Origin: Rufibacter immobilis
GTDB lineage: Bacteria > Bacteroidota > Bacteroidia > Cytophagales > Hymenobacteraceae
NCBI RefSeq assembly: GCF_003721565.1
Contig: NZ_RJJE01000009.1
Span: 620,001 to 684,000, forward strand
DNA length: 64,000 nt
Direction of reading: 5' to 3'
Numbering within the stretch: position 1 is the first letter of the stretch; the number at the start of each line of letters is the position of its first letter. The notes under the pieces were generated by a model that was not told where the DNA came from, made no database searches, and saw only the letters and a program-made list of their open reading frames with translations. Positions 1,523 to 55,677 of the stretch are shown one piece after another. A program made the translations under genes and the position numbers.

Positions 1523-3028
1523 TTAAAACACGCCAACTGCCTTGAGCAAGATTCTGAGGCTCCAGATAATTACCAGCGAGCCTACCGCGATGAACATGGT
1601 CTTCACGGGTAGTTTACCTGCTAACTGAGCCGCAATGGGAGCCGCGATGAGCCCGCCCAGGATCAGACCCAGAATGATGTGCAGGTGGCTCATGCCCAGC
1701 ATGGCAAAAAAAGTGACGGAACTGGCCAGCGCCACAAAAAACTCCGTGATGCTCACCGAGCCAATCACAAACCGGGGGGTACGGCCTTTAGAGATGAGGG
1801 TACTGGTCACCAGAGGTCCCCAACCGCCGCCGCCAAAGGAATCCAGGAAACCTCCGGCCCCGGCCAGCCAACCGGCTTTTTTGATTTTCTTGCGCTGCTT
1901 CGTCTTCCGGAAGGCGGCATAAATAATTCGGGCACCTAAAATCAACGTATAAAATGCCAGGAAAGGCCGCACGTAGTCGCCGTACTCCTCTCCTACCACA
2001 GACAACAGATACGCTCCCACCACCGCGCCAATCACCCCCGGAATCAAAAGTACCTTGAACAGTTTCTTGTTCACGTTGCCGTACTTGTAGTGGCTGTACC
2101 CAGAAGCCCCGCTGGAGAAAACCTCGGCGGTATGGATGCTCCCGCTAATGGCCGGCAGGTTCACGCCCAACGACATAAGAATAGTGGTACAGGTTACGCC
2201 GTACCCCATGCCCAAGGCGCCGTCTACCATCTGAGCGGCAAAACCGGCTAAGATCATCCAGTAGAAAAGCGGGTCAATGGAATGGGCGAAGGCGCTGGTC
2301 TGCCCCATGGCGGCCTGCACCGGGGCATACGTACTCAGCCAGAGACCCAGCAACACAAACACAGCGGCAATCAGGCTACCCAAAAACAGTTTCTTCCACC
2401 ACGGCACGGCCACCGGTTCTTTGGGCGCCCCTTCCGACTTGGCCATGACCTTGGTGATGTTGTTGAGTTGGGTCACTTTGGCGCTGAAATCACCTTTGAG
2501 CCGGTTCCGGATCTGCTGCATGTTGTCCAGCACCTCGTCCAGTTCCTCGGGCAGCGTTTCATTAAATGTTTCCTTCAGGCGCTTGGCCATGGTAGGCGAT
2601 TTTCCGTTGGTGGAGATGGCTATTTTGAGGTTGCCTTTGCGCACCACGGAGCTGAGGTAGAAATCACAGAGCTCCGGAGTATCTGCCACGTTCACCAGCC
2701 TGCCCTGGCGCTTGGCCTCATTGCTGATCTCGCGGCTGGCGGAGCGGTCATTCACGGCCACAATCACCACATCGGCCCCGGCCAGGTCTTCCGGGCTGAA
2801 GGCTTTGGGCACCAGGGAAATGGCATGATGTTCCTGAGCCAACTGCAACACCGCTTTGTTAAACTCAATGGCCACCACTTTGATGGTAGTTCTGGGGGAG
2901 TTCTGCAGCAGGGCCGTTAGTTTTTCCAGGGCCACGTTGCCCCCTCCTACCACCAGCACGCACAAGTGCTCCAGCTTGAGGAAGACCGGGAACAGTTCAT
3001 TTTGCTCTTTGATCTCTGTGATGGTCAT
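1523..3028 (-). CDS. Fusion of precorrin-2 dehydrogenase/sirohydrochlorin ferrochelatase domain with TSUP (TauE/SafE) permease
   Basis: 501 residues. Residues about 13-190 match the N-terminal half of CysG/Met8: a Rossmann glycine motif in VVGGGNVALEK, then VNVADTPELCDFYLSSVVRKGNLKIAISTNGKSP (split here: VADTPELCDFYL and ISTNGKSP are the diagnostic parts). This domain makes siroheme from precorrin-2, needed by sulfite reductase. From about residue 212 the chain becomes a multi-pass membrane protein with the two glycine-rich repeats typical of TSUP anion permeases (GALGMGYG and GGFLDSFGGGGWGP). It is the last gene of the cys operon, 261 nt beyond cysI. The permease half probably moves sulfate or sulfite, which is inferred. 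CobA supplies the missing methyltransferase step. Confidence 0.88.
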   Translation of the reverse strand: MTITEIKEQNELFPVFLKLEHLCVLVVGGGNVALEKLTALLQNSPRTTIKVVAIEFNKAVLQLAQEHHAISLVPKAFSPEDLAGADVVIVAVNDRSASREISNEAKRQGRLVNVADTPELCDFYLSSVVRKGNLKIAISTNGKSPTMAKRLKETFNETLPEELDEVLDNMQQIRNRLKGDFSAKVTQLNNITKVMAKSEGAPKEPVAVPWWKKLFLGSLIAAVFVLLGLWLSTYAPVQAAMGQTSAFAHSIDPLFYWMILAGFAAQMVDGALGMGYGVTCTTILMSLGVNLPAISGSIHTAEVFSSGASGYSHYKYGNVNKKLFKVLLIPGVIGAVVGAYLLSVVGEEYGDYVRPFLAFYTLILGARIIYAAFRKTKQRKKIKKAGWLAGAGGFLDSFGGGGWGPLVTSTLISKGRTPRFVIGSVSITEFFVALASSVTFFAMLGMSHLHIILGLILGGLIAAPIAAQLAGKLPVKTMFIAVGSLVIIWSLRILLKAVGVF

Positions 3029-3230
3029 GGCAATAGATTAGTGGTGGGGGAATGATAAAAACAAGGCACGAGCGCAAAGCTGGCAACCAAAGGCAGATGA
3101 GCCGAAAAGCTCAGCGGGCAGGATGGATCTGGAACTATGAATATAAGTAACCTACTAATAAACAACAAATTACTACCAATATTTTCAACGTAACGCAGAA
3201 GATACCAGCTACTTTACCTCCCGCAAAAGT

Positions 3231-3275
3231 TTTCCGTTTAGGGGCCTTTTTTGGAAAAACAGCCCCTAAACGGAA
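3231..3275. repeat. Family A palindrome, copy 3
   Basis: Full-length CCG...CGG form with arms TTTCCGTTTAGGGGC and GCCCCTAAACGGAAA. It sits 14 nt beyond the cysI stop, between cysI and the fusion gene. Confidence 0.95.
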
Positions 3276-3289
3276 AGCTCTGCCAAGGG

Positions 3290-4969
3290 CTAGTTTACCA
3301 AAGTGCGGTAGGCAAAATCGCCGAAGCGTTCTCCCGCCAGCCTGTTCTGCTTGAAAAGCCCGAAAGCCGTGTCCAGTTCCTGTAGAATGGCGGCCTCATC
3401 CAGGTTTTCCCGGTAGAGTTTGTTCAGGCGCTGGCCCTGCTCATCGCCACCCAGGTTGAGGTTATAGTGGCCGGGGGCGGTTCCCACGAAACCAATCTCT
3501 GAGAGCACCGACCGGCCGCAGCCGTTGGGGCAACCCGTCATCCGGATGATGATTTCCTCGTCCTGAAGCCCGTGCTGGGCCAGTACTCCGTCAATCTTGG
3601 TAATGAGCTCAGGCAGGTAACGCTGGGCTTCGGCCAGGGCCAACGGACAGGTAGGCAGCGCCACGCAGGCCATGGCGTTTTTGCTCACCAGAGAAGCGGC
3701 CTCCGTGTGCGGAATCAGGTTGTACAGCACCAGAATCTGCTCAATGGCGGCTTTGTCTTCGGGAGTTATGTCACTGAGGATGACGTTCTGGTTACAGGTG
3801 AACCGGAAATTGGCTTTGCCGGTTTGCGCCACTGCCAGGAGAGCCGCTTTCATGGGCAGTTGCTCGGTGTCCAGCACGCGGCCATTCTCTACGTACACCG
3901 TGTAATGCCACAGCCCGGTGTTGCTTTGCCGCCAGCCGTAATGGTCTTGCCGCGTGGTGAGCACGTACGGACGGGCCTCTTCCAAGGCAAACCCAATGCG
4001 GCTTTCCAACTCCTGCCTAAAACCGTCTACGCCCATGCGGTCTACCGTGTATTTCAGGCGGGCCAGTTTGCGGTCAGTGCGGTTCCCGAAGTCACGCTGC
4101 ACCGTCAGGACTTCGTACACGGCCTTGAACAGTTTCTCGTCAGACTCCTCCGTGCTCACGAACCCAATCTCAGTAGCCAGCCTTGGATACGTCTCCGGGT
4201 TGCCGTGCGTGAACGACAAACCGCCGCCCACCGCCAGATTGAAGCCTTTCAGCTCATCGTTCTCAATGATGGCAATAAGGCCCAGGTCCTGCGCAAACAC
4301 GTCTGAGTCATTGTTAGGCGGAATCACCAGCCCAATCTTGAACTTACGGGGTAGGTAGCGGTCCTGGTACAGCGGATCTTCCTCGTCTTTCTTCTCCACC
4401 AGCTTTTCCTCGTCTAGCCAGATGTCATAGTAAGACCGGGTTTTGGGCAGCAGGTATTCACTGATCCTGTCGGCGTACTGGTAGATGCGCTCGTGCAGCG
4501 GCGACTCCAGCGGGTTAGCGCTGGCCACCACGTTGCGGTTCACATCGCCGCAGGCGGCAATGGAATCCAGGCCCGCCTGGTTGAAAGCCTTGATGGTAGG
4601 CTTGGTCTTTGATTTGACAATGCCGTGCAGCTGCAAGGTCTGGCGGGTAGTGATTTTAATAACGCCCGTAGAGTTGTCTCCGGCAATGTTGTGCGTGGCC
4701 ACCCACTGCTCCGGCGTGAGGAAGCCGCCCGGCAGGCGCAGCCGGATCATGAACGAATACAGGCGCTCCAGTTTTTTGGCGGCGCGTTCCTCGCGGCGGT
4801 CGCGGTCGTCCTGCATGTACATGCCGTGGAACTTCACCAGCGCGGTATCATCTTCCCGAATAGCCCCGGTGATTTCGTCTTTCAGACTTTCTTTGAGTGT
4901 CCCCCGCAGTCCATCACTTACTTCTTTGATGCGCTCAATAGGCGACAGATTCTTTTTCTCAGTTGACAT
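3290..4969 (-). CDS. cysI: Assimilatory sulfite reductase hemoprotein (beta) subunit
   Basis: 559 residues, the usual length for CysI. It reduces sulfite to sulfide with six electrons at a siroheme-[4Fe-4S] centre. The four cluster cysteines are visible as C435/C441 in ACVALPTC and C480/C484 in TGCPNGCGR. Siroheme-binding segments TTRQTLQLHG (107-116) and CGDVNRNV (140-147) are also present. It is encoded downstream of cysJ, its flavoprotein electron donor, with a 293-nt gap that holds family A and B repeats. The pairing with CysJ indicates the NADPH-dependent rather than the ferredoxin-dependent type. Confidence 0.95.
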   Translation of the reverse strand: MSTEKKNLSPIERIKEVSDGLRGTLKESLKDEITGAIREDDTALVKFHGMYMQDDRDRREERAAKKLERLYSFMIRLRLPGGFLTPEQWVATHNIAGDNSTGVIKITTRQTLQLHGIVKSKTKPTIKAFNQAGLDSIAACGDVNRNVVASANPLESPLHERIYQYADRISEYLLPKTRSYYDIWLDEEKLVEKKDEEDPLYQDRYLPRKFKIGLVIPPNNDSDVFAQDLGLIAIIENDELKGFNLAVGGGLSFTHGNPETYPRLATEIGFVSTEESDEKLFKAVYEVLTVQRDFGNRTDRKLARLKYTVDRMGVDGFRQELESRIGFALEEARPYVLTTRQDHYGWRQSNTGLWHYTVYVENGRVLDTEQLPMKAALLAVAQTGKANFRFTCNQNVILSDITPEDKAAIEQILVLYNLIPHTEAASLVSKNAMACVALPTCPLALAEAQRYLPELITKIDGVLAQHGLQDEEIIIRMTGCPNGCGRSVLSEIGFVGTAPGHYNLNLGGDEQGQRLNKLYRENLDEAAILQELDTAFGLFKQNRLAGERFGDFAYRTLVN

Positions 4970-5023
4970 GGTAACTGGTCTTTATGATTAGATCAGGAAG
5001 GCTCCTGTTTCTTCTTGTAGTTA

Positions 5024-5066
5024 TTTCCGTTTAGGGGCTTTTTTTGGAAAAAGAGCCCCTAAACAG
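5024..5066. repeat. Family A palindrome, copy 4
   Basis: Arms TTTCCGTTTAGGGGCTTTTTT and AGAGCCCCTAAACAG. It lies in the cysJ-cysI intergenic gap inside the operon. Confidence 0.95.
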
Positions 5067-5086
5067 TTCTTTATGGAATCTCTTCT

Positions 5087-5250
5087 TCGTCCCCCTTGGA
5101 AGGGGGTAGGCGGATGACAGGCCGGTTAAAAAACCAGGCATCTTTCGCTATGAAGCAAGGGCAACCACAAGGGATTGCCCCTACATAAATTCTGCTATGC
5201 CTGATCTGCAAGAGTCAACATCCCCTTACCCCTTCCAAGGGGGACGAAGA
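5087..5250. repeat. Family B inverted pair with about 100-nt spacer
   Basis: Two inverted arms (5087-5118 and 5219-5250) carry TTCGTCCCCCTTGGAAGGGG. The core has changed from TTTGAA to TTGGAA in both arms relative to the copy at 1352, so the pair keeps its complementarity. The spacer contains a separate small hairpin, GGGCAACCAC...GATTGCCC. The unit sits between cysJ and cysI within the operon. Confidence 0.75.
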
Positions 5251-5262
5251 AGTACCAGATGC

Positions 5263-6975
5263 TTAATACACGTCTTTCAGATACCGGCCTTCTTCTTTGA
5301 GTTGCTCTAGATAGACGGCGGCTTCTTCGGGGCTTGAACCGGCGCCCAGGCCTATGATCTGCAGCAGCGTGTTCTCCACGTCCACGCTCATGGGCTCCTT
5401 GGCCCCGCACACGTACACATAGGCTCCGGCCTTGAGCCACTCATAGAAGGCAGCGGCGTTCTCCAGCATCTTGTGCTGCACGTACACTTTCTCTTGCTGG
5501 TCACGGGAGAAGGCGCCGTTGAACTTGGACAGGATGCCGGTCTCATACCAACTCTGGATCTCAGTCTGGTACAGAAAATCGGTGGCGAAGTGCTGGTCTC
5601 CGAAGAAAAGCCAGTTACGACCTTCGGCGCCCACGGCATCGCGTTCGGCCAGGAAAGAGCGGAACGGAGCCACGCCCGTACCCGGACCAATCATGATCAC
5701 GTCTTTGTCTGGAGCCGGTAACTTGAACTGGCTGTTTTTGTGGATGTAGAATTCTACCCTGGAACCCTCTGGCAACCCAGACAGGTAATCTGAGCAGTGG
5801 CCGCACAACAGTTCCTCATTGATTCGGAATTCATCCCGGGCCACGGTCACGTGAATCTCACCAGAATGGGCTTCCAGAGACGAGGAGATGGAATACAGCC
5901 GCGGCGTAATGGGCTCCAGAATCTGTAAGACTTCCTTGAACTGCTCGGCGTCTTTCACGGGGTAAATCCGGAGCAAATCCAGCAGGTCAATGCGGGTAGC
6001 CGGGATGTTCTGCTCCACCACTTCGGCATATTTCTTTACCACCCGCTCAGGCAGGTACGTGATGTTTACTTTGTCCTGCAACAGTTCCTGAACAGTTGAC
6101 TCACTGTTGCGGTGGGTCACTTTCTCAGTGGGCGCAATGCCGGTAATCTTAAAAATGGCCTCAATGGCGGCTGGCCGGTTTTTAGGCACTACCCCCAAGG
6201 CATCGCCGGGCTCATAGGCCAGGTCTTCGGCCTCTATCTCAATGTGGTGCGTCTTTTTGTTGGAGCCCACATCGTTCAGGATGATGTTGGTGAGCAGGGT
6301 ACCCTGGTAGATTTTCTTGCCCGTTTTTTTGGCAGGGGCAGGAGCTACCGCAGGGGCAGAAGAGGCAGAACCATTGCTGGCCAAGGATTGCATCACGCTC
6401 TGGAACCAGGCATTGGCTTCGTCTTCATAGTCCACATCGCACTTCTGGATGGGCACCAGCTGGCTGCCGCCCAAGCGCTTCAGCTGCGCGTCTACGTCTT
6501 CGCCGGCTTTGCAGAACAGCGGGTATGAGGTATCGCCTAAGGCCAGCACACTGTACTTGAGTTTAGGCAGTTGTTTATCGGTTTGGTGCACGTAGTCAAA
6601 GAACTTCTGCGCACCGGCGGGCGGATCTCCCTCGCCCTGCGTACTGATCACGGTCAGGAAATATTCTTCCTTTTCCAGATCTGTGAGGCGGTACTGGTCT
6701 AAGCTTACCACTTTGGCGTTGATCCCGCTCTTTTTGGCTTTACCCGCCAGTTCCGTGGCCACACGTTTGGAGTTTCCGGTCTCGGTGCCGTAGGCAATGG
6801 TTACCTTACCCGCCGCCGGCTTGGGAGCCTGGGCCACCGCCGTTCCAGATGCCGTCGCCGCAGCTCCCTGGCCTGAAATAAGCCCCGACAAGTAGCCGCT
6901 CATCCAGAGCACTTCATCCCTGGAAGATTGGTTCACCAGTTCCTGGAGGGCCTTAAGTTTCGCTTCTGCTAACAT
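5263..6975 (-). CDS. cysJ: Sulfite reductase flavoprotein (alpha) subunit
   Basis: 570 residues in the order flavodoxin domain, FAD domain, NADPH domain. The FMN loop is seen in YGTETGNSKRVA. A proline/alanine-rich linker (about 198-217) follows. The FAD-binding motif RLYSISSS is followed by GHCSDYL, the NADPH site is GPGTGVAPFRSF, and the C-terminus YLKDVY is typical of CysJ. It passes electrons from NADPH through FAD and FMN to CysI. It starts 11 nt after cobA, so the two are probably co-translated. Confidence 0.95.
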   Translation of the reverse strand: MLAEAKLKALQELVNQSSRDEVLWMSGYLSGLISGQGAAATASGTAVAQAPKPAAGKVTIAYGTETGNSKRVATELAGKAKKSGINAKVVSLDQYRLTDLEKEEYFLTVISTQGEGDPPAGAQKFFDYVHQTDKQLPKLKYSVLALGDTSYPLFCKAGEDVDAQLKRLGGSQLVPIQKCDVDYEDEANAWFQSVMQSLASNGSASSAPAVAPAPAKKTGKKIYQGTLLTNIILNDVGSNKKTHHIEIEAEDLAYEPGDALGVVPKNRPAAIEAIFKITGIAPTEKVTHRNSESTVQELLQDKVNITYLPERVVKKYAEVVEQNIPATRIDLLDLLRIYPVKDAEQFKEVLQILEPITPRLYSISSSLEAHSGEIHVTVARDEFRINEELLCGHCSDYLSGLPEGSRVEFYIHKNSQFKLPAPDKDVIMIGPGTGVAPFRSFLAERDAVGAEGRNWLFFGDQHFATDFLYQTEIQSWYETGILSKFNGAFSRDQQEKVYVQHKMLENAAAFYEWLKAGAYVYVCGAKEPMSVDVENTLLQIIGLGAGSSPEEAAVYLEQLKEEGRYLKDVY

Positions 6976-6986
6976 AGCTTTGTAAA

Positions 6987-7808
6987 TTATTGAAGTACCA
7001 GGCCCACTTGTTCAGACACCGGTTTGAAGTAATATTCTCTTGTTGGGTTGTTGGTAAACCACTTGAACTCCTCATGCAGGTTCACCACTTTGCCTATGAT
7101 CACGAGCGAGGGCGAGACAAACGTTTTCCCGCCCAGGTTCTTTTCATAGTCATACAGGTTGCTCACCTGCACGTGCTGCAGCGGGGTGGTGGCCTGTTCC
7201 ACCACGGCCAGCTGTTTCTCCGCAGAGATGCCGTGCCGGGTCAGCTTCTCCACCACTTCAGACAGTCTTTCTGAGGACATGTAAAACACCAGGGTGTCCT
7301 GGGTTTGGGCCAGTTCGTGCCAGTATGCTTCGGTGAGTTTGCTGTAGGTGTAGTAGGTGAGGAAGCGCACCGCCGTGGAATGCTGCCGGGCCGTGAGCGG
7401 AATTCCTGCGTAAGCCGCGGCCCCCAGGGCGGCCGTGATGCCCGGAATAATCTCGTACTCAATCTCATGGGCCACCAGGCTTTGCAGCTCATCCAGCACG
7501 TTGGAGAAAATGGACACGTCGCCGCCTTTGAGCCGAAGTACTCTTTTCCCCAGCAGCGCATATTCCACCAAAAGCTCATTAATGGTAGCCTGCGGCGTGG
7601 TGCCGTGGCTGCGGCATTGTTTGCCTACGTACACAATCTCGGCGTCTGGGGCGGCGTAATTTGCCAGGATCTCCTCACTCACCAGCCGGTCTACCAGAAT
7701 TACCTGGGCCTGGCGCAACGCCTTTACCGTCTTCACCGTGATCAGGTCAGGGTCGCCGGGACCGGCTCCTGCAATAATCACTTTTCCTCTTTGTTGCGCT
7801 GAGTTCAT
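6987..7808 (-). CDS. cobA: Uroporphyrinogen-III C-methyltransferase
   Basis: 273 residues from the start chosen here. The open frame continues upstream to 7895, but that extension translates a family A repeat (EKRPLNGN), so the ATG at 7808 beginning MNSAQQRGKV is preferred. SAM-dependent methyltransferase motifs are GAGPGDPDLITVK near the N-terminus, LRLKGGDVSIFS and EIIPGITAALGAAAYAGIPLT (key part PGITAALGAA). It methylates uroporphyrinogen III twice to precorrin-2, feeding the dehydrogenase/ferrochelatase domain encoded at the operon end. It is a stand-alone SUMT, not a CysG fusion. Confidence 0.93.
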   Translation of the reverse strand: MNSAQQRGKVIIAGAGPGDPDLITVKTVKALRQAQVILVDRLVSEEILANYAAPDAEIVYVGKQCRSHGTTPQATINELLVEYALLGKRVLRLKGGDVSIFSNVLDELQSLVAHEIEYEIIPGITAALGAAAYAGIPLTARQHSTAVRFLTYYTYSKLTEAYWHELAQTQDTLVFYMSSERLSEVVEKLTRHGISAEKQLAVVEQATTPLQHVQVSNLYDYEKNLGGKTFVSPSLVIIGKVVNLHEEFKWFTNNPTREYYFKPVSEQVGLVLQ

Positions 7809-7869
7809 TTGTTTGGTTATAGATTCTCCTCCCTCTCCAAAACAGGAGAAGCAGAATAGGTTTGAAGGG

Positions 7870-7915
7870 TTTCCGTTTAGGGGCCGTTTTTCCAAAAAGA
7901 GCCCCTAAACGGAAA
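7870..7915. repeat. Family A palindrome, copy 5
   Basis: CCG...CGG form with tight loop (GCCGTTTTTCCAAAAAGAGC). It lies in the cysN-cobA gap. The reading frame through it gives a false N-terminal extension to cobA. Confidence 0.95.
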
Positions 7916-7960
7916 GTTGCATCTTCCCGCAGGCGCGGATGTTCATGAAAGATTGGTCTC

Positions 7961-9238
7961 TTAGATTTCTGGCCAGAATTCTTCTTGCTTGGCTTGGGTG
8001 GAGATCATACAGGCGCCCACAGTCACGTTGCTGGTCTCATCAATCAAGATGGCGCCGCCGTTGGCTCTCAGGTTCTGGTAAGCATCAAACACAATGGGCG
8101 AGGCAGTTTTGATGGTGGCTTTCACCACATCGTTGAGCCCCGCCTGCACCGGCGAAAGTTCTTTCTCCAGCGTGTTCACGTTCAGCTTGTACTCCAGCTC
8201 CTTTACCACGCAGCGCACGGTGCGGCTGTTGATCTGCAGCAGGTATTTGTTGCGCGGCACCAGCGGTGTGTTGCTCATCCAGCACAGCACCACCTCAAAT
8301 TCCTGGGCTACCTGCACCGGCGCGTCTTGCTTCACAATCACGTCACCCCTACTGATGTCCACGTCATCTGCCAGGTGCAGCACCACGCTCTGCGGCGCAA
8401 ACGCTTCTTCCACTTCCTTACCGGCAACTTCCACCGCCGAGACGGTGCTCTCCACCCCAGACGGCTGCACCACCACTTTATCGCCTTTGCGGTAAATGCC
8501 GCTGATGATTTTTCCGGCGTAGCCGCGGTAATCGTGCAGTTCCTCGGTCTGCGGACGGATCACGTACTGCACCGGGAAGCGGCCTTGGGTGAGGTTAACG
8601 TCTTCGTGCACTTCCACGGTCTCCAGCAGGCCCAGGAGAGAATTACCCTCGTACCACGGCATGGCCGCAGATTTCTCCACAATGTTGTCGCCGTTGAGCG
8701 CGCTGATGGGAATGAAGGTCACGTTCTTGAGGCCCAAAGATTTGGCTACCTGCGCGTAATCAATCACGATGTCATTGAACACATCCTGCGAGAAGTTCAC
8801 CAGGTCCATCTTGTTCACGGCCACCACCACGTGCGGCAGGTTGAGCAAGGACACAATGATGGAATGCCGGCGGGTCTGTTCCACCACCCCGTGGCGCGCA
8901 TCAATGAGGATAATGGCCAGGTCTGAGTTAGACGCGCCCGTGACCATGTTGCGGGTGTACTGGATGTGGCCCGGCGTGTCTGCGATGATGAACTTACGCT
9001 TGGGTGTGTTAAAGTATTTGTAGGCCACGTCAATGGTGATGCCCTGCTCCCGCTCGGCCCGGAGACCGTCTGTGAGCAACGCCAAATCCACCTGTCCTTC
9101 GGCCTTGTTTTTGGTGCTGCGCTCAATGGCTTCCAACTGGTCTACCATGATGGATTTGCTGTCATACAACAGGCGGCCAATCAGGGTGCTTTTGCCATCG
9201 TCTACGCTACCGGCGGTTAAAAATCTTAGAATATCCAT
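7961..9238 (-). CDS. cysN: Sulfate adenylyltransferase large subunit (GTPase)
   Basis: 425 residues, an EF-Tu-like GTPase that drives ATP sulfurylase. G1 is GSVDDGKST (9-17), the switch II region is DTPGHIQYTRNM, and G4 is NKMDL. Beta-barrel domains follow. There is no APS kinase (CysC) extension, which agrees with the downstream reductase being an APS reductase. With CysD it converts sulfate and ATP to APS in the cytoplasm. It follows cysD after a 275-nt gap containing repeats of families A, D and E. Confidence 0.95.
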   Translation of the reverse strand: MDILRFLTAGSVDDGKSTLIGRLLYDSKSIMVDQLEAIERSTKNKAEGQVDLALLTDGLRAEREQGITIDVAYKYFNTPKRKFIIADTPGHIQYTRNMVTGASNSDLAIILIDARHGVVEQTRRHSIIVSLLNLPHVVVAVNKMDLVNFSQDVFNDIVIDYAQVAKSLGLKNVTFIPISALNGDNIVEKSAAMPWYEGNSLLGLLETVEVHEDVNLTQGRFPVQYVIRPQTEELHDYRGYAGKIISGIYRKGDKVVVQPSGVESTVSAVEVAGKEVEEAFAPQSVVLHLADDVDISRGDVIVKQDAPVQVAQEFEVVLCWMSNTPLVPRNKYLLQINSRTVRCVVKELEYKLNVNTLEKELSPVQAGLNDVVKATIKTASPIVFDAYQNLRANGGAILIDETSNVTVGACMISTQAKQEEFWPEI

Positions 9239-9245
9239 TTCAAAA

Positions 9246-9277
9246 TGAGTTCTGAGTCTTGAGTTCTGAGTCTTGGT
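9246..9277. repeat. Family E tract (GAGTTCTGAGTCTT type)
   Basis: Short degenerate run built from TTCTGAGTCTTGAG units, directly abutting a family A copy. Similar tracts occur at 19071, 24364 and 36611. Confidence 0.55.
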
Positions 9278-9320
9278 CTGGTTTAGGGCTGTTTTCAGAA
9301 AAACGGCCTTTAAACGGCTT
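9278..9320. repeat. Family A palindrome, copy 6 (diverged)
   Basis: GTTTAGGGCTGTTTTC facing GGCCTTTAAACGG; arms are shortened and partly mismatched. It lies in the cysD-cysN gap. Confidence 0.8.
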
Positions 9321-9410
9321 TGTCTCAGCTCTCAGTCTCTCTTTATTCTTTCATCGGCAGAACCGAAACTATTTTCTACAATGCTTGGCTATTGCCTTTC
9401 AAGTTTGCCT

Positions 9411-9433
9411 ACAAGGTCCTTTCAGGATGACAA
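9411..9433. repeat. Family D single arm
   Basis: Reads ACAAGGTCCTTTCAGGATGA. It matches one arm of the inverted pair at 59498-59588. No partner is seen nearby. Confidence 0.6.
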
Positions 9434-9513
9434 GAGAGAAGCATCAGGGCAGCAAACCTGCAAGAGAAAATCCTGCGTCTTGCGTCTTATATCCTGTGTC
9501 TAAAATCTAGCAT

Positions 9514-10422
9514 CTAGAAATACCCGTTCTTCTTACGGTCTTCCATGGCGGCCTCAGAGACGCGGTCATCTATGCGGGTCTGGCCGCGCTCGCTGGTGTT
9601 GGTGGCGATGATCTCGTTGATGATATCGTCCAAGGTACTGGCGCTGGACTCCACGGCGGCGGTACAGGTCATGTCGCCCACGGTGCGGTAGCGCACGGTT
9701 TTGCGGGTCACCACGTCATTGTCATGCAGTTGGATGAACTGGTTGGTGGCTACCAAACGGCCGTCAAACTCCAGCACCTCGCGCTCATGGGCGAAGTAGA
9801 TAGAGGGCAGCTCAATGTTCTCGCGGCGGATGTAGTTCCAGATGTCCAGCTCGGTCCAGTTACTGATGGGGAACACCCGCACGTTCTCACCCTTGCTGAT
9901 TTTGCCGTTGTAGGTATTCCAGAGCTCGGGGCGCTGCAACTTAGGGTCCCAGGACCCGAACTCGTCGCGCACGGAGAAGATGCGTTCTTTGGCGCGGGCT
10001 TTCTCCTCATCGCGGCGGGCGCCGCCAATGCAGGCGTCAAAGTCAAACTCCTCAATGGTGTCCAGCAGCGTGTAGGTTTGCAGACCGTTGCGGCTGGGCA
10101 GTTTGCCTTTCTGCTCCGTTAAACCTTTGGCTTTGATGGTGTCTTCCACGTTGCGCACAATCAGTCTCTCGCCAATCTTATGGGCCAAATAGTCTCTGAA
10201 GTCAAGCGCTTCCTGGAAGTTGTGGCCGGTGTCAATGTGCACCAGCGGGAAAGGGAACTTACCGGGCCTGAACGCCTTGAGCGCCAGGTGCACCAGCACA
10301 ATAGAGTCTTTTCCGCCGGAAAACAGAAGGGCTGGGCGCTCAAACTGACCCGCCACTTCTCTGAAAATGTGAATCGCTTCTGATTCTAGCTGATCCAGGT
10401 AATCTAATTTATACGAACCCAT
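9514..10422 (-). CDS. cysD: Sulfate adenylyltransferase small subunit
   Basis: 302 residues, the usual CysD length. The PP-loop ATP pyrophosphatase motif SGGKDSIVL is at about 35-43, followed by HIDTGHNFQE and, further on, GGARRDEEKARAKER, all typical of the catalytic subunit. It adenylates sulfate to APS together with the GTPase CysN. The start codon lies 20 nt downstream of cysH, so the two are almost certainly one transcript. The C-terminus GYF is usual for the family. Confidence 0.96.
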   Translation of the reverse strand: MGSYKLDYLDQLESEAIHIFREVAGQFERPALLFSGGKDSIVLVHLALKAFRPGKFPFPLVHIDTGHNFQEALDFRDYLAHKIGERLIVRNVEDTIKAKGLTEQKGKLPSRNGLQTYTLLDTIEEFDFDACIGGARRDEEKARAKERIFSVRDEFGSWDPKLQRPELWNTYNGKISKGENVRVFPISNWTELDIWNYIRRENIELPSIYFAHEREVLEFDGRLVATNQFIQLHDNDVVTRKTVRYRTVGDMTCTAAVESSASTLDDIINEIIATNTSERGQTRIDDRVSEAAMEDRKKNGYF

Positions 10423-10442: not shown

Positions 10443-11192
10443 CTACTTAGCCAGCTCCGGGGCTACCGGGGCCGGCGATTCTGATACGTGTAACCCACAC
10501 TCTTTTTTGCTGCTGTCTTCCCACCACCAGCGCCCGGCCCTGAAATCCTCGCCCGGCTGAATGGCTCTGGTACACGGCGCGCAGCCAATACTCACAAACC
10601 CTTTGTCATGCAGGTGGTTGTACGGAATGTTGTGTTGCTTGATGAAGGCCATCACCTCTTCTGTACTCCAGTGCAGCAGCGGGTGGAATTTGAGGAGCTG
10701 ATTGCCCTCGTCCCACTCAAACTTGGGCAGATCGCTGCGGCCGGCAGAGTGTTCGGCGCGCAGGCCGGTAATCCAGACGGCGTTTCCCGCCAGCGCCCGC
10801 TTGAGCGGCTCCACTTTTCTGATGAAGCAACAGTCTTTGCGGTTCTGGGTAGAGGCGTAGAAAGAGTTGGGACCATGGGTATGGACAAACTCCTCCAGCA
10901 GCTCATTGTTGGGGTAATAGGCCCTGATGCGGGTTTTGTAGGCATCATTGGTCTTGCTCCACACGCTGTAGGTCTCCGGGAAAAGGCGGCCGGTATCTAG
11001 CGTGAAAATGCTGATGGGGAAGTGGTTCTCCAGGATCTGATGCGAGATCACCTGGTCTTCAAAGCTGAAGCTGGAGGAGAACGTTACCGCGTTGGGATAA
11101 TGGTTCACCAGCAGCGCGAACGTTTGGTCTATGGTGAAGCCTTCTGTCTCAAGGATAAGCTGAGACACGTGCTCTTGTGCAGAAGCGGCCAT
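10443..11192 (-). CDS. cysH: Adenylyl-sulfate (APS) reductase, 4Fe-4S type
   Basis: 249 residues. The PAPS/APS reductase fold is shown by TFSSSFSFEDQV (37-48) and FTLDTGRLFPET. The cluster cysteine pairs C121-C122 (KDCCFIRK) and C204/C207 (GCAPC) mark the iron-sulfur APS reductase type; PAPS reductases lack them. The nucleophile C232 is in KKECGLH. It makes sulfite from APS using thioredoxin. As the first gene of the operon it lies 79 nt after the stop of a cysteine-rich leader peptide. The absence of a CysC domain in CysN fits direct APS use. Confidence 0.95.
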   Translation of the reverse strand: MAASAQEHVSQLILETEGFTIDQTFALLVNHYPNAVTFSSSFSFEDQVISHQILENHFPISIFTLDTGRLFPETYSVWSKTNDAYKTRIRAYYPNNELLEEFVHTHGPNSFYASTQNRKDCCFIRKVEPLKRALAGNAVWITGLRAEHSAGRSDLPKFEWDEGNQLLKFHPLLHWSTEEVMAFIKQHNIPYNHLHDKGFVSIGCAPCTRAIQPGEDFRAGRWWWEDSSKKECGLHVSESPAPVAPELAK

Positions 11193-11271
11193 GGCAAGAA
11201 AATACGTAAACGAAAATAACTGAATTGATGAGGCGTGCGCACGGGCACAGGGATTTGTTGACTGCTAAAAA

Positions 11272-11313
11272 CTAGCGACAACAGCAGCAGGAGCTGCAAC
11301 AGCAGAAGCGCAT
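11272..11313 (-). CDS. Cysteine-rich leader peptide MRFCCCSSCCCCR
   Basis: A 13-codon frame (ATG at 11313, TAG at 11274-11272) encodes seven cysteines, in runs of three and four. It lies in the 5' leader of the cys operon, about 58 nt after the predicted transcription start and 79 nt before cysH. Cysteine is the end product of the pathway, so ribosome stalling at the Cys runs when Cys-tRNA is short would be a direct sensor, as for his/trp leader peptides and the cysteine-rich leaders reported in mycobacteria. No clear terminator stem with a U-tract follows, so control may act on translation or through Rho. The reading is seen in sequence; the mechanism is inferred. Confidence 0.72.
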   Translation of the reverse strand: MRFCCCSSCCCCR

Positions 11314-11376
11314 TCGCTTTATGTAAGATGAGTAGACCATATAGTCTTTTTTCTCTGGCTGTTTGTTAAGATGCTG

Positions 11377-11406
11377 CAAAGATAGGCACTGACTTTTATA
11401 AATCAA
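11377..11406 (-). promoter_or_regulatory. Bacteroidetes-type promoter of the cys operon
   Basis: On the minus strand TTG (11406-11404) is followed after 19 nt by TATCTTTG (11384-11377), matching the Bacteroidetes TTG/TAnnTTTG consensus. Transcription should start near 11371. That gives a leader of about 180 nt containing the cysteine-rich peptide before cysH. Confidence 0.75.
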
Positions 11407-11523
11407 GTTTTCCTATCAATTTAGTAGAGTTTTAGATTTTAAATTACCTAAACAACCCTTTCATTGTTTCAGACTCTGCTAAAGAAACTTAGGTTGTTTT
11501 AACGTATTCACAAACCACTGCGT

Positions 11524-11564
11524 TCCGTTTAGCGGCTCTTTTTCCAGAATTAGCCCCAAACCAG
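11524..11564. repeat. Family A palindrome, copy 7 (partly diverged)
   Basis: TTCCGTTTAGCGGCTCTTTTTCC faces AGAATTAGCCCCAAACCAG (described by arms CCGTTTAGCGGC and GCCCCAAACC). It lies between the divergent cys operon and the LRR-kinase gene. Confidence 0.85.
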
Positions 11565-11660
11565 TAAGTGTTATAAGTAAGCCTGCCCCCTAGCCGCACC
11601 ACCTGCTCACTGCTCCCAACCTGAAAATGCCTACCTTCGCGGCGCTTATTCCCTGCGTGC

Positions 11661-12977
11661 ATGCAAACTTTAGAACAACTCCGGAGCGGAGCGCTGGCCG
11701 GTGCCAAACAGCTGAAGCTTTCCTGCGGACTTACCGCTTTCCCGCCCCAAATCCTGGACTTAGCCCCCACGCTGGAGATCCTGGATTTAACGGGCAACAA
11801 GCTCAGTCACCTGCCCCCTGCCTTCGCCCAGCTGCAAAACCTCCGGATCGCGTTTTTCTCAGACAATGACTTCACCGTCTTTCCCCAAGTGCTGGCCCAG
11901 TGCCCAAAACTGGAAATGATTGGCTTCAAGGCCTGCCAGATCAGGGAAATTCCGGAGGGCGCCCTGCCCGCCGCTACCCGCTGGCTTATCTTGACCAACA
12001 ACCACCTGGAGAAACTGCCCGCTTCTATTGGCCAATGCACCCGCCTGCAGAAACTCATGCTGGCGGGCAACCGCCTGAAAGAGCTTCCTCAGGAATTGGC
12101 CCACTGCCAGCACCTGGAGCTGCTCCGTATCTCAGCAAACAACTTGGAGGAGCTTCCGGCCTGGCTGTGGTCGCTGCCGCGTTTGTCCTGGCTCGCGTTT
12201 GCGGGGAATCCCTGCCAGCCCCTTGCTCCCAACCCGAGTTCCTTACCGGAAGTGCCATGGCCTGATCTTGAGTTGGAAGAGCAGTTAGGCGAAGGCGCCT
12301 CCGGCATCATCTCCAAAGCGTACTGGCCCAGTCAGGAAACCCATGTGGCGGTGAAAGTCTTCAAAGGCGAAGTCACCAGCGACGGCCTGCCCCAGGATGA
12401 AATGAGCGCCTGTATGGCCGCGGGTAAGTACCCTAACCTGGTGCAGGTACTGGGCCAACTCCAGCAGCACCCCGAAGGGAAACAGGGCCTGGTACTAAGT
12501 CTAATTCCCCCTGATTACCGCAACCTGGGCGGGCCACCCAGCTTTGCCACCTGCACCCGTGATGTCTACGCCAGCGGCACCGTTTTCCCCTTGGCAGCAG
12601 CACTCCGCATAGCGGTAGGCATGGCATCCGTGGCCGGTCATCTGCACCGCCGGGGCATCCTGCACGGCGATCTCTACGCCCATAATACCTTGGTGAACGG
12701 CAGCGGCCACCCGCTGTTCGGGGATTTCGGGGCCGCCACCCGCTATGACCGCTCAGACGCGGCCCTGGCCGAACTTCTGGAACGGATAGAAGTGCGCGCC
12801 TACGGTTATTTACTGGACGATCTGCTCACCCACCTTTCCCCCCAAGACCAAACCCAAGAAACGGCCATAGCCCTGGCGCAACTGAAAGAAGCGTGCCTGG
12901 ACCCCCAGGTACAGCATAGGCCAGACTTTGCCAGCATTGAAAAGCTGTTGAGCTCGCTTCCCGTGGCTGGGGAATAG
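11661..12977 (+). CDS. Leucine-rich-repeat protein kinase
   Basis: 438 residues without signal peptide or membrane span, so cytoplasmic. Residues about 15-190 form seven or so LRRs (LTGNKLSHLP, LTNNHLEKLP, LAGNRLKELP, ISANNLEELP). A protein-kinase domain follows from about 205: glycine loop LGEGASG (209-215), VAIK-type lysine K232, catalytic loop HGDLYAHN (335-342), and GDFG (354-357). The usual HRD is HGD here, as in some atypical kinases, while D337, N342 and D355 are kept, so activity is plausible. A promoter-like TACCTTCG lies at 11629-11636. It is divergent from the cys operon; no partner is encoded nearby. The substrate is unknown. Confidence 0.88.
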   Translation: MQTLEQLRSGALAGAKQLKLSCGLTAFPPQILDLAPTLEILDLTGNKLSHLPPAFAQLQNLRIAFFSDNDFTVFPQVLAQCPKLEMIGFKACQIREIPEGALPAATRWLILTNNHLEKLPASIGQCTRLQKLMLAGNRLKELPQELAHCQHLELLRISANNLEELPAWLWSLPRLSWLAFAGNPCQPLAPNPSSLPEVPWPDLELEEQLGEGASGIISKAYWPSQETHVAVKVFKGEVTSDGLPQDEMSACMAAGKYPNLVQVLGQLQQHPEGKQGLVLSLIPPDYRNLGGPPSFATCTRDVYASGTVFPLAAALRIAVGMASVAGHLHRRGILHGDLYAHNTLVNGSGHPLFGDFGAATRYDRSDAALAELLERIEVRAYGYLLDDLLTHLSPQDQTQETAIALAQLKEACLDPQVQHRPDFASIEKLLSSLPVAGE

Positions 12978-55482: not shown

Positions 55483-55488
55483 CAGATG

Positions 55489-55593
55489 CTTATCAAGAAA
55501 GACGGAGGGATTAGGCCCTGTGATGTCTTAGCAACCCAATTCAGTTGGGTGCTACTTCCTACCCGCTGCCACTGCTGCAACGGGGGAGATGAG
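55489..55593 (+). ncRNA. SAM-I riboswitch upstream of metH
   Basis: CTTATC (55489-55494) pairs with GATGAG (55588-55593) as P1. The core AAGACGGAGGGATTAGGCCC, then GATGTCTTAGCAACC, and GGGTGCTACTTCC match the SAM-I core (GCAACC...GGTGCTA, kink-turn region). It senses S-adenosylmethionine and lowers metH expression when SAM is high. No strong terminator follows before the ATG, so the output may be translational. Confidence 0.9.
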
Positions 55594-55677
55594 TGACGGA
55601 GATTCCTACACGCCTACCCGCCACTTCCTCCTACCCTTTCTTGAGCCGCCACTAACCCTTTAGGTTTGCACAAGAAG

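Follow-up and report, generated by a model that had tools for sequence, protein, structure and literature searches.

To our knowledge, the Bacteroidota have no well-described regulators of cysteine and sulfate assimilation. In mycobacteria, polycysteine leaderless short ORFs before sulfur genes were reportedly described by Canestrari et al. in Mol Microbiol in 2020. Another source cites these ORFs as a case of translation attenuation of cysteine genes (PMC13236596). A uORF with tandem Cys codons, uORFC-8-2, is located before cysS in Rhodobacterales and is read as ribosome-mediated attenuation in the accessible text of PMC8632094. Riboswitches joined with uORF translation could be found in excerpts on M. 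tuberculosis, where the B12 riboswitches of metE and ppe2 have associated uORFs (PMC11260477) and the Mbox of pe20 combines a uORF with Rho-dependent termination (PMC12810186). Leader-peptide control has also been suggested within the Bacteroidota (Bacteroid-trp RF01692, PMC2864571; PMC9723704; PMC7366714); these attenuators belong to the same phylum as the present locus, and the accessible portions of the three sources have no Cys leader among them. For SAM-I riboswitches, a layout in which the ribosome site forms part of the 3' strand of P1 is an established one (PMC2258182). A survey of the open-access literature, a scope which leaves out most subscription papers, revealed neither a report of a Cys leader from the Bacteroidota nor one of a SAM riboswitch that gates such a leader.

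The stretch of DNA analysed here, referred to as the window, consisted of 64,000 nt of Rufibacter immobilis (NZ_RJJE01000009.1, 620,001-684,000), and all coordinates are given as window positions (Table 1). A short uORF rich in Cys codons is situated ahead of sulfate-assimilation genes, which is the arrangement of an amino-acid leader peptide. The promoter is of the Bacteroidota type and would place the transcription start site at approximately 11371. The preliminary description had claimed this promoter, an ORF with seven Cys codons and a gap of 79 nt between the stop of the uORF and the ATG of cysH (11192), and all three were borne out by the sequence. An additional in-frame ATG could be identified upstream at 11340; since both ATGs (11340 and 11313) are kept in all 14 sequences of the genus, 11340 may be the real start of the uORF. 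This longer in-frame start, together with a palindrome, an RNA-level constraint on the Cys codons and a link to SAM riboswitches in relatives, goes beyond what had been described before.

Table 1. Features of the cysH leader and the sulfate-assimilation operon (window positions).
Feature	Position	Strand	Basis
Palindrome-like CTACTAAATTGATAGG (CTAYTAAMTTGATAGG), candidate operator	11412..11427	(-)	just upstream of the -33 element
Promoter TTG-N19-TATCTTTG	11377..11406	(-)	sequence; conserved block in the 14-sequence genus alignment
5' UTR element AACAGNCAGA, complement of Cys run 1	11354..11363	(-)	9 pairs; pairing in 14/14 sequences
Long form of the Cys leader MVYSSYIKRMRFCCCSSCCCCR, 22 codons	11272..11340	(-)	open and conserved in 14/14 genus genomes
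Short Cys leader ORF MRFCCCSSCCCCR, 13 codons, 7 Cys codons	11313..11272	(-)	sequence
Hairpin GCAGC/GCTGC joining both Cys runs	11284..11297	(-)	pairs in 14/14; invariant, so uninformative either way
Hairpin around the uORF stop codon	11257..11282	(-)	95-98% of cells paired; one pair changed on both sides (3 sequences)
Untranslated 79-nt C-over-G spacer, candidate Rho loading region	11193..11271	(-)	C/G 1.83
cysH, (phospho)adenylylsulfate reductase, first operon gene	10443..11192	(-)	NCBIfam NF002537, 257 bits vs cut-off 154
cysD, cysN, cobA, cysJ, sulfite reductase, siroheme synthase/TauE fusion	1523..10422	(-)	NCBIfam and Pfam

The likeness to the mycobacterial ORFs lies in the poly-Cys uORF before sulfur genes. 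However, those ORFs are leaderless, whereas the uORF described here begins about 30 nt past the predicted transcription start, its first ATG being 36 nt after the -7 element; the phylum is also a different one, and a SAM aptamer lies ahead of the uORF in relatives. The uORFC-8-2 motif likewise has tandem Cys codons in a uORF that precedes a cysteine gene, but its Cys codons number two, it ends in an intrinsic terminator with a U run and it belongs to cysS of alphaproteobacteria, while the present gene is cysH and is not accompanied by a terminator. The M. tuberculosis cases are similar in joining a riboswitch with uORF translation, and in the use of Rho for the Mbox, but they involve other ligands, and in the excerpts available none of their uORFs responds to an amino acid from the pathway under control. 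With regard to SAM-I (RF00162), the aptamers of relatives exceed the cut-off of the family, for which control via P1 beside the start site is established (PMC2258182); here, the gated frame would be a Cys-tailed uORF and not an enzyme, and the cysH leader of the window is without an aptamer.

The conservation of the uORF was evaluated among cysH loci. In the family, cysH was present in 106 of 150 genomes at 107 places, of which 41 were read, including the window. In the genus of the window (g1; 16 genomes searched, 14 with cysH), a frame with CCC-xx-CCCC was kept in all 14 cysH genomes, the one exception being a change of one Cys to Gly (L016). A Cys-rich uORF ahead of cysH was observed at 14/14 loci of g1, 10/13 of g3 (absent at the other three), 6/6 of g5 and 8/8 of g6, giving 38 of the 41 family loci read. 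The preliminary description had proposed the conservation of Cys codons in related genomes as a check on its claim, and the outcome is in its favour. The N-terminal parts of the uORF vary between genera, while the Cys tail ahead of the stop recurs, and in most leaders the Cys codons occupy the very end of the frame, adjoining the stop codon. At three loci (L018, L019, and L027), the Cys codons are scattered across the last 20 or so codons and do not form a single run. Predicted ribosome stalling at the Cys codons is well supported by this comparison. Outside the family, a Cys uORF could be found at 3 of the 40 loci read from an order sample of 54 loci, and at least 4 Cys in 9 codons were present at 5 of 20 further loci and at 12 of 80 named-species loci. 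Five of these 80 were judged convincing by position and C-terminal run (L113, L116, L118, L159, and L189), with L159 being a Chitinophagales genome and L189 Hymenobacter nivis. Another Hymenobacter cysH locus (L181) had no Cys uORF; this absence, those at three g3 loci and the low counts outside the family weigh against the leader-peptide reading.

Scanning of the window with Rfam revealed no leader or riboswitch family match in the cysH leader. The sole match in the window was a SAM-I aptamer at 55487..55595, which is located ahead of a metH-like gene; its P1 differs (CTTATC...), and it is not followed by a Cys uORF. Within the genus, the scan covered the cysH leaders of the window, L004, L006, and L012 and gave no SAM-I match; the leaders of the other 10 loci align with these along their full length. 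When 58 cysH leaders were scanned, many of which had been chosen for having a uORF, 30 contained SAM-I above the gathering score, with the aptamers of relatives scoring 49-87 bits against a cut-off of 44.4. The uORF start (ATG or GTG) was positioned 4-12 nt past the last base of the aptamer in 29 of these 30 leaders. The exception was L095, in which the uORF starts 112 nt past the aptamer, behind a terminator-like hairpin.

A genome-wide set of SAM-I riboswitches was also collected, with 21 matches from five family genomes and 31 from twelve other genomes of the order and class. These 52 matches were distributed over 16 of the 17 genomes (G166 had none), and 51 of them had a readable locus. 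With a Cys-tailed uORF defined by three or more Cys among its final 9 codons, 26 of the 51 riboswitches were followed by such a frame at 7-12 nt. It was found after an AU-only P1 (TTTATA/TATAAA) in 24 of 28 cases and after any other P1 in 2 of 23 cases (Fisher p 2.3e-8), while 4 of the 28 AU-type riboswitches lacked the Cys tail. In L346, L362, and L368, the uORF that begins 9-10 nt past an AU-type SAM riboswitch has no Cys tail, and this frame may sense something else or may have lost its tail. The Cys tails of the SAM-linked uORFs mix TGT (96 codons) and TGC (53 codons), so that conservation in these tails acts on the amino acid.

In the five family genomes, 16 of the 21 SAM-I riboswitches were accompanied by a Cys-tailed uORF, and the five exceptions, one per genome, resemble metH leaders by eye. 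The targets of the 16 modules were cysH (4), a metY-like sulfhydrylase (5), sulfite reductase (2), permeases (2), an NhaC-like transporter (1), an ATP-grasp protein (1), and a gene without identification (1). Downstream genes were searched against protein families for L332 (metY-like), L305 and L312 (sulfite reductase), L324, and L330, and the rest were named by eye on the basis of shared N-termini; the permease match of L324 and the RimK-like match of L330 were both below their cut-offs. The genome of the window itself contains one such module, before metY, which encodes O-acetylhomoserine sulfhydrylase (G000:C10:386085-386199, L332), where the SAM-I aptamer is followed at 9 nt by MEKQTNATSDNAAPRLTMAAKGSTLLSIIPTTTRMCTMSTTGICCCCR. 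The interpretation as a Cys leader is well supported, and the cysH element would belong to a larger set of such leaders, putatively SAM-gated at many loci. If true, many SAM-I riboswitches would receive a target that has been overlooked by gene annotation.

Several further arrangements could be observed among these modules. The sulfite reductase leaders of three g3 genomes (L305, L322, and L312) carry a SAM aptamer and two tandem Cys-rich uORFs, the second of which is weak in L312. Modules of a SAM aptamer and a Cys uORF were also present ahead of NhaC-like transporters (L303 and L338), another membrane protein (L365), and, as named by eye, an outer-membrane receptor-like protein (L360).

The element is very probably a Cys-sensing leader peptide of the sulfate-assimilation operon, and the Cys-responsive leaders would make up a regulon that is SAM-gated at cysH in most relatives. 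We infer a course of events that leads from translation of the uORF and stalling to the sign of the response, gating by P1 and the action of Rho. When charged tRNA-Cys is ample, ribosomes would be released at the stop codon, and expression of the operon would be held down by the exposed spacer, rich in C and poor in G, or by a refolded leader. When tRNA-Cys is uncharged, the ribosome would stall in the Cys codons before the stop and cover the stop-proximal RNA, and the operon would be expressed. Translation of the uORF would, in most related genera, depend on a SAM-I aptamer whose AU-rich P1 ends 4-12 nt before the uORF start. Expression of the genes would then require low levels of both SAM and cysteine, as low expression would result either from an untranslated uORF at high SAM or from a fully translated uORF at high cysteine.

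A wider reading is rather probable, in which many Bacteroidota (Cytophagales with Hymenobacter-like genera, and some Sphingobacteriales and Chitinophagales) use a SAM-I gate with an AU-rich P1 together with a poly-Cys uORF and switch the genes on only when both inputs are low. According to the same reading, the genus of the window lost the aptamer at cysH, kept that of metY, and reused the leader with the opposite effect at a cysteine desulfurase. If true, the Bacteroidota would gain a regulator of cysteine and sulfate assimilation in which a riboswitch and a leader peptide are placed in series on one transcript.

The step by which a stalled ribosome would affect the operon can be considered from the terminator search. 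A promoter/terminator scan of 10900-11700 revealed no terminator-like site on the minus strand, which confirms for the window that no intrinsic terminator follows the ORF and agrees with the suggestion of the preliminary description that the mechanism could differ from classical attenuation. A trp/his-type attenuator was rejected for the window on this finding. Transcription attenuation with an intrinsic terminator, even though it is the usual form of amino-acid attenuation, is very improbable here, since a separate terminator scan gave candidates in 2 of 48 leaders (L008 and L009), both within the Cys run, and the hairpin of L095, which was recognised by eye, follows the SAM aptamer and precedes the Cys uORF. 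With an intrinsic terminator missing, Rho-dependent termination or translational refolding would be the most likely output. In tna-type Rho control, a stalled ribosome covers stop-proximal RNA, and by analogy a Rho-dependent output of this type is given somewhat less than an even chance. The spacer had a C/G ratio above 1 in 48 of 48 leaders and exceeded the start of cysH in 43 of 48, with the C-over-G bias being present in cysH itself too; such spacers fit Rho loading without proving it. Translational attenuation without Rho, in which the stalled ribosome refolds the leader (pairing of Cys run 1 with the 5' element and with run 2, and the stop hairpin) and thereby opens or closes cysH initiation, is a close rival, to which a somewhat lower chance is given. 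It is favoured by the near absence of synonymous change at the Cys codons of the g1 uORF, which were identical in 656 of 669 pairwise comparisons, as against 245 of 364 for the Cys codons of the initial 230-codon part of cysH. The consensus fold of the genus places all three helices on the Cys codons and stop codon with 99.0% of cells paired, against at most 76.3% in slid controls, and the block GTATTTTCTTGCCATGG at the cysH start is conserved in the genus alignment. Moreover, the 5' element AACAGNCAGA can pair with the second Cys run almost as well as with the first, and a ribosome could choose between the two pairings. On the other hand, changes on both sides occurred in one pair only of the genus structure, a number that shuffles reach in 344 of 500 cases, and no helix of the consensus fold convincingly covers the cysH start. 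The fold stability of the single window leader was also no better than that of shuffles (z 0.05), and the GCAGC/GCTGC hairpin never varies, so it speaks neither for nor against structure. Support for a conserved RNA structure in the genus is thus modest, and that from covariation is weak.

Two other explanations concern the frame itself and not the output of the proposed Cys-sensing leader. Metal-binding Cys-rich upstream peptides are known in other bacteria, and the peptide could likewise sense a metal or the thiol state, or act as a small protein; however, the variable N-terminal parts and the recurring Cys tail argue against this, the identified targets are all sulfur or amino-acid genes, and a poly-Cys tail beside the stop suits stalling better than a folded site, so that little probability is assigned to it. 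The probability of a chance frame in TGC/TGT-rich DNA is next to nil. A loose pattern of four TGY codons in a row does occur at 78 places in the genome of the window, mostly within genes, but only one further place had the long Cys pattern, and it contained an in-frame stop codon. Seven Cys in 9 codons were reached by 1 of 20,000 dinucleotide-preserving shuffles of the leader. Moreover, at least 5 Cys in 9 codons were found in 27 of 80 leaders of relatives on the sense strand, 13 of these 27 being from the close genus of the window, against 0 of 80 on the reverse strand. The conservation of the uORF in 14/14 genus genomes likewise contradicts a chance origin, and the statement of the preliminary description that so Cys-rich a frame is unlikely to arise by chance is upheld.

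The looser-pattern search of the same genome also exposed the uORFs of metY and of a cysteine desulfurase. At the latter, which is IscS/NifS-like, MNRICSTCCCCKK stops 7 nt short of the gene (L219, minus strand, ~1534-1493). The best model for the protein was NifS with 391 bits, which is under the equivalog cut-off of 530.75, which makes the family clear but leaves the exact type open. A Cys-rich uORF with its end 7-13 nt ahead of the desulfurase could be found in all 16 genus genomes (L223-L238), including the two without cysH, and at 0 of 14 loci in other genera; in L238, the aligned start codon reads ACG. As Cys uORFs occur at the desulfurase and, putatively SAM-gated, at metY in the same genome, the link to cysteine made in the preliminary description does not rest on one coincidental case. 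Stalling within CCCC, 20-30 nt before the desulfurase start codon, would block the next initiation and spare cysteine. Judging from this spacing, low cysteine would switch the desulfurase off, with a sign opposite to that at cysH. If true, the cysH and desulfurase leaders of one genome would respond in opposite directions to a ribosome stalled in the same way, so that the pair would directly test the effect of stall position.

The palindrome upstream of the promoter is a candidate site of a sulfur regulator. With at most one mismatch, it could be found before cysH in 14/14 genus genomes with cysH and in 0/2 genomes without it. One more copy in the genome of the window lies before cysK (L045:1501-1516). 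A shared cysH/cysK operator was considered and rejected: four extra sites in other genus genomes were not beside cysK by tblastn, and a cysH/cysK regulon is therefore not established.

A search of viral contigs revealed no relatives of cysH. The operon has the gene order cysH-cysD-cysN-cobA-cysJ-sulfite reductase-siroheme synthase/TauE fusion, and its genes are predicted from order and strand to be co-transcribed from cysH to the fusion gene. At the end of the operon (1523..3028, minus strand), a siroheme-synthase N-terminal domain is fused to a TauE/SafE sulfite-exporter domain. The product of the divergent gene at 11661..12977 on the plus strand combines leucine-rich repeats with a protein-kinase domain.
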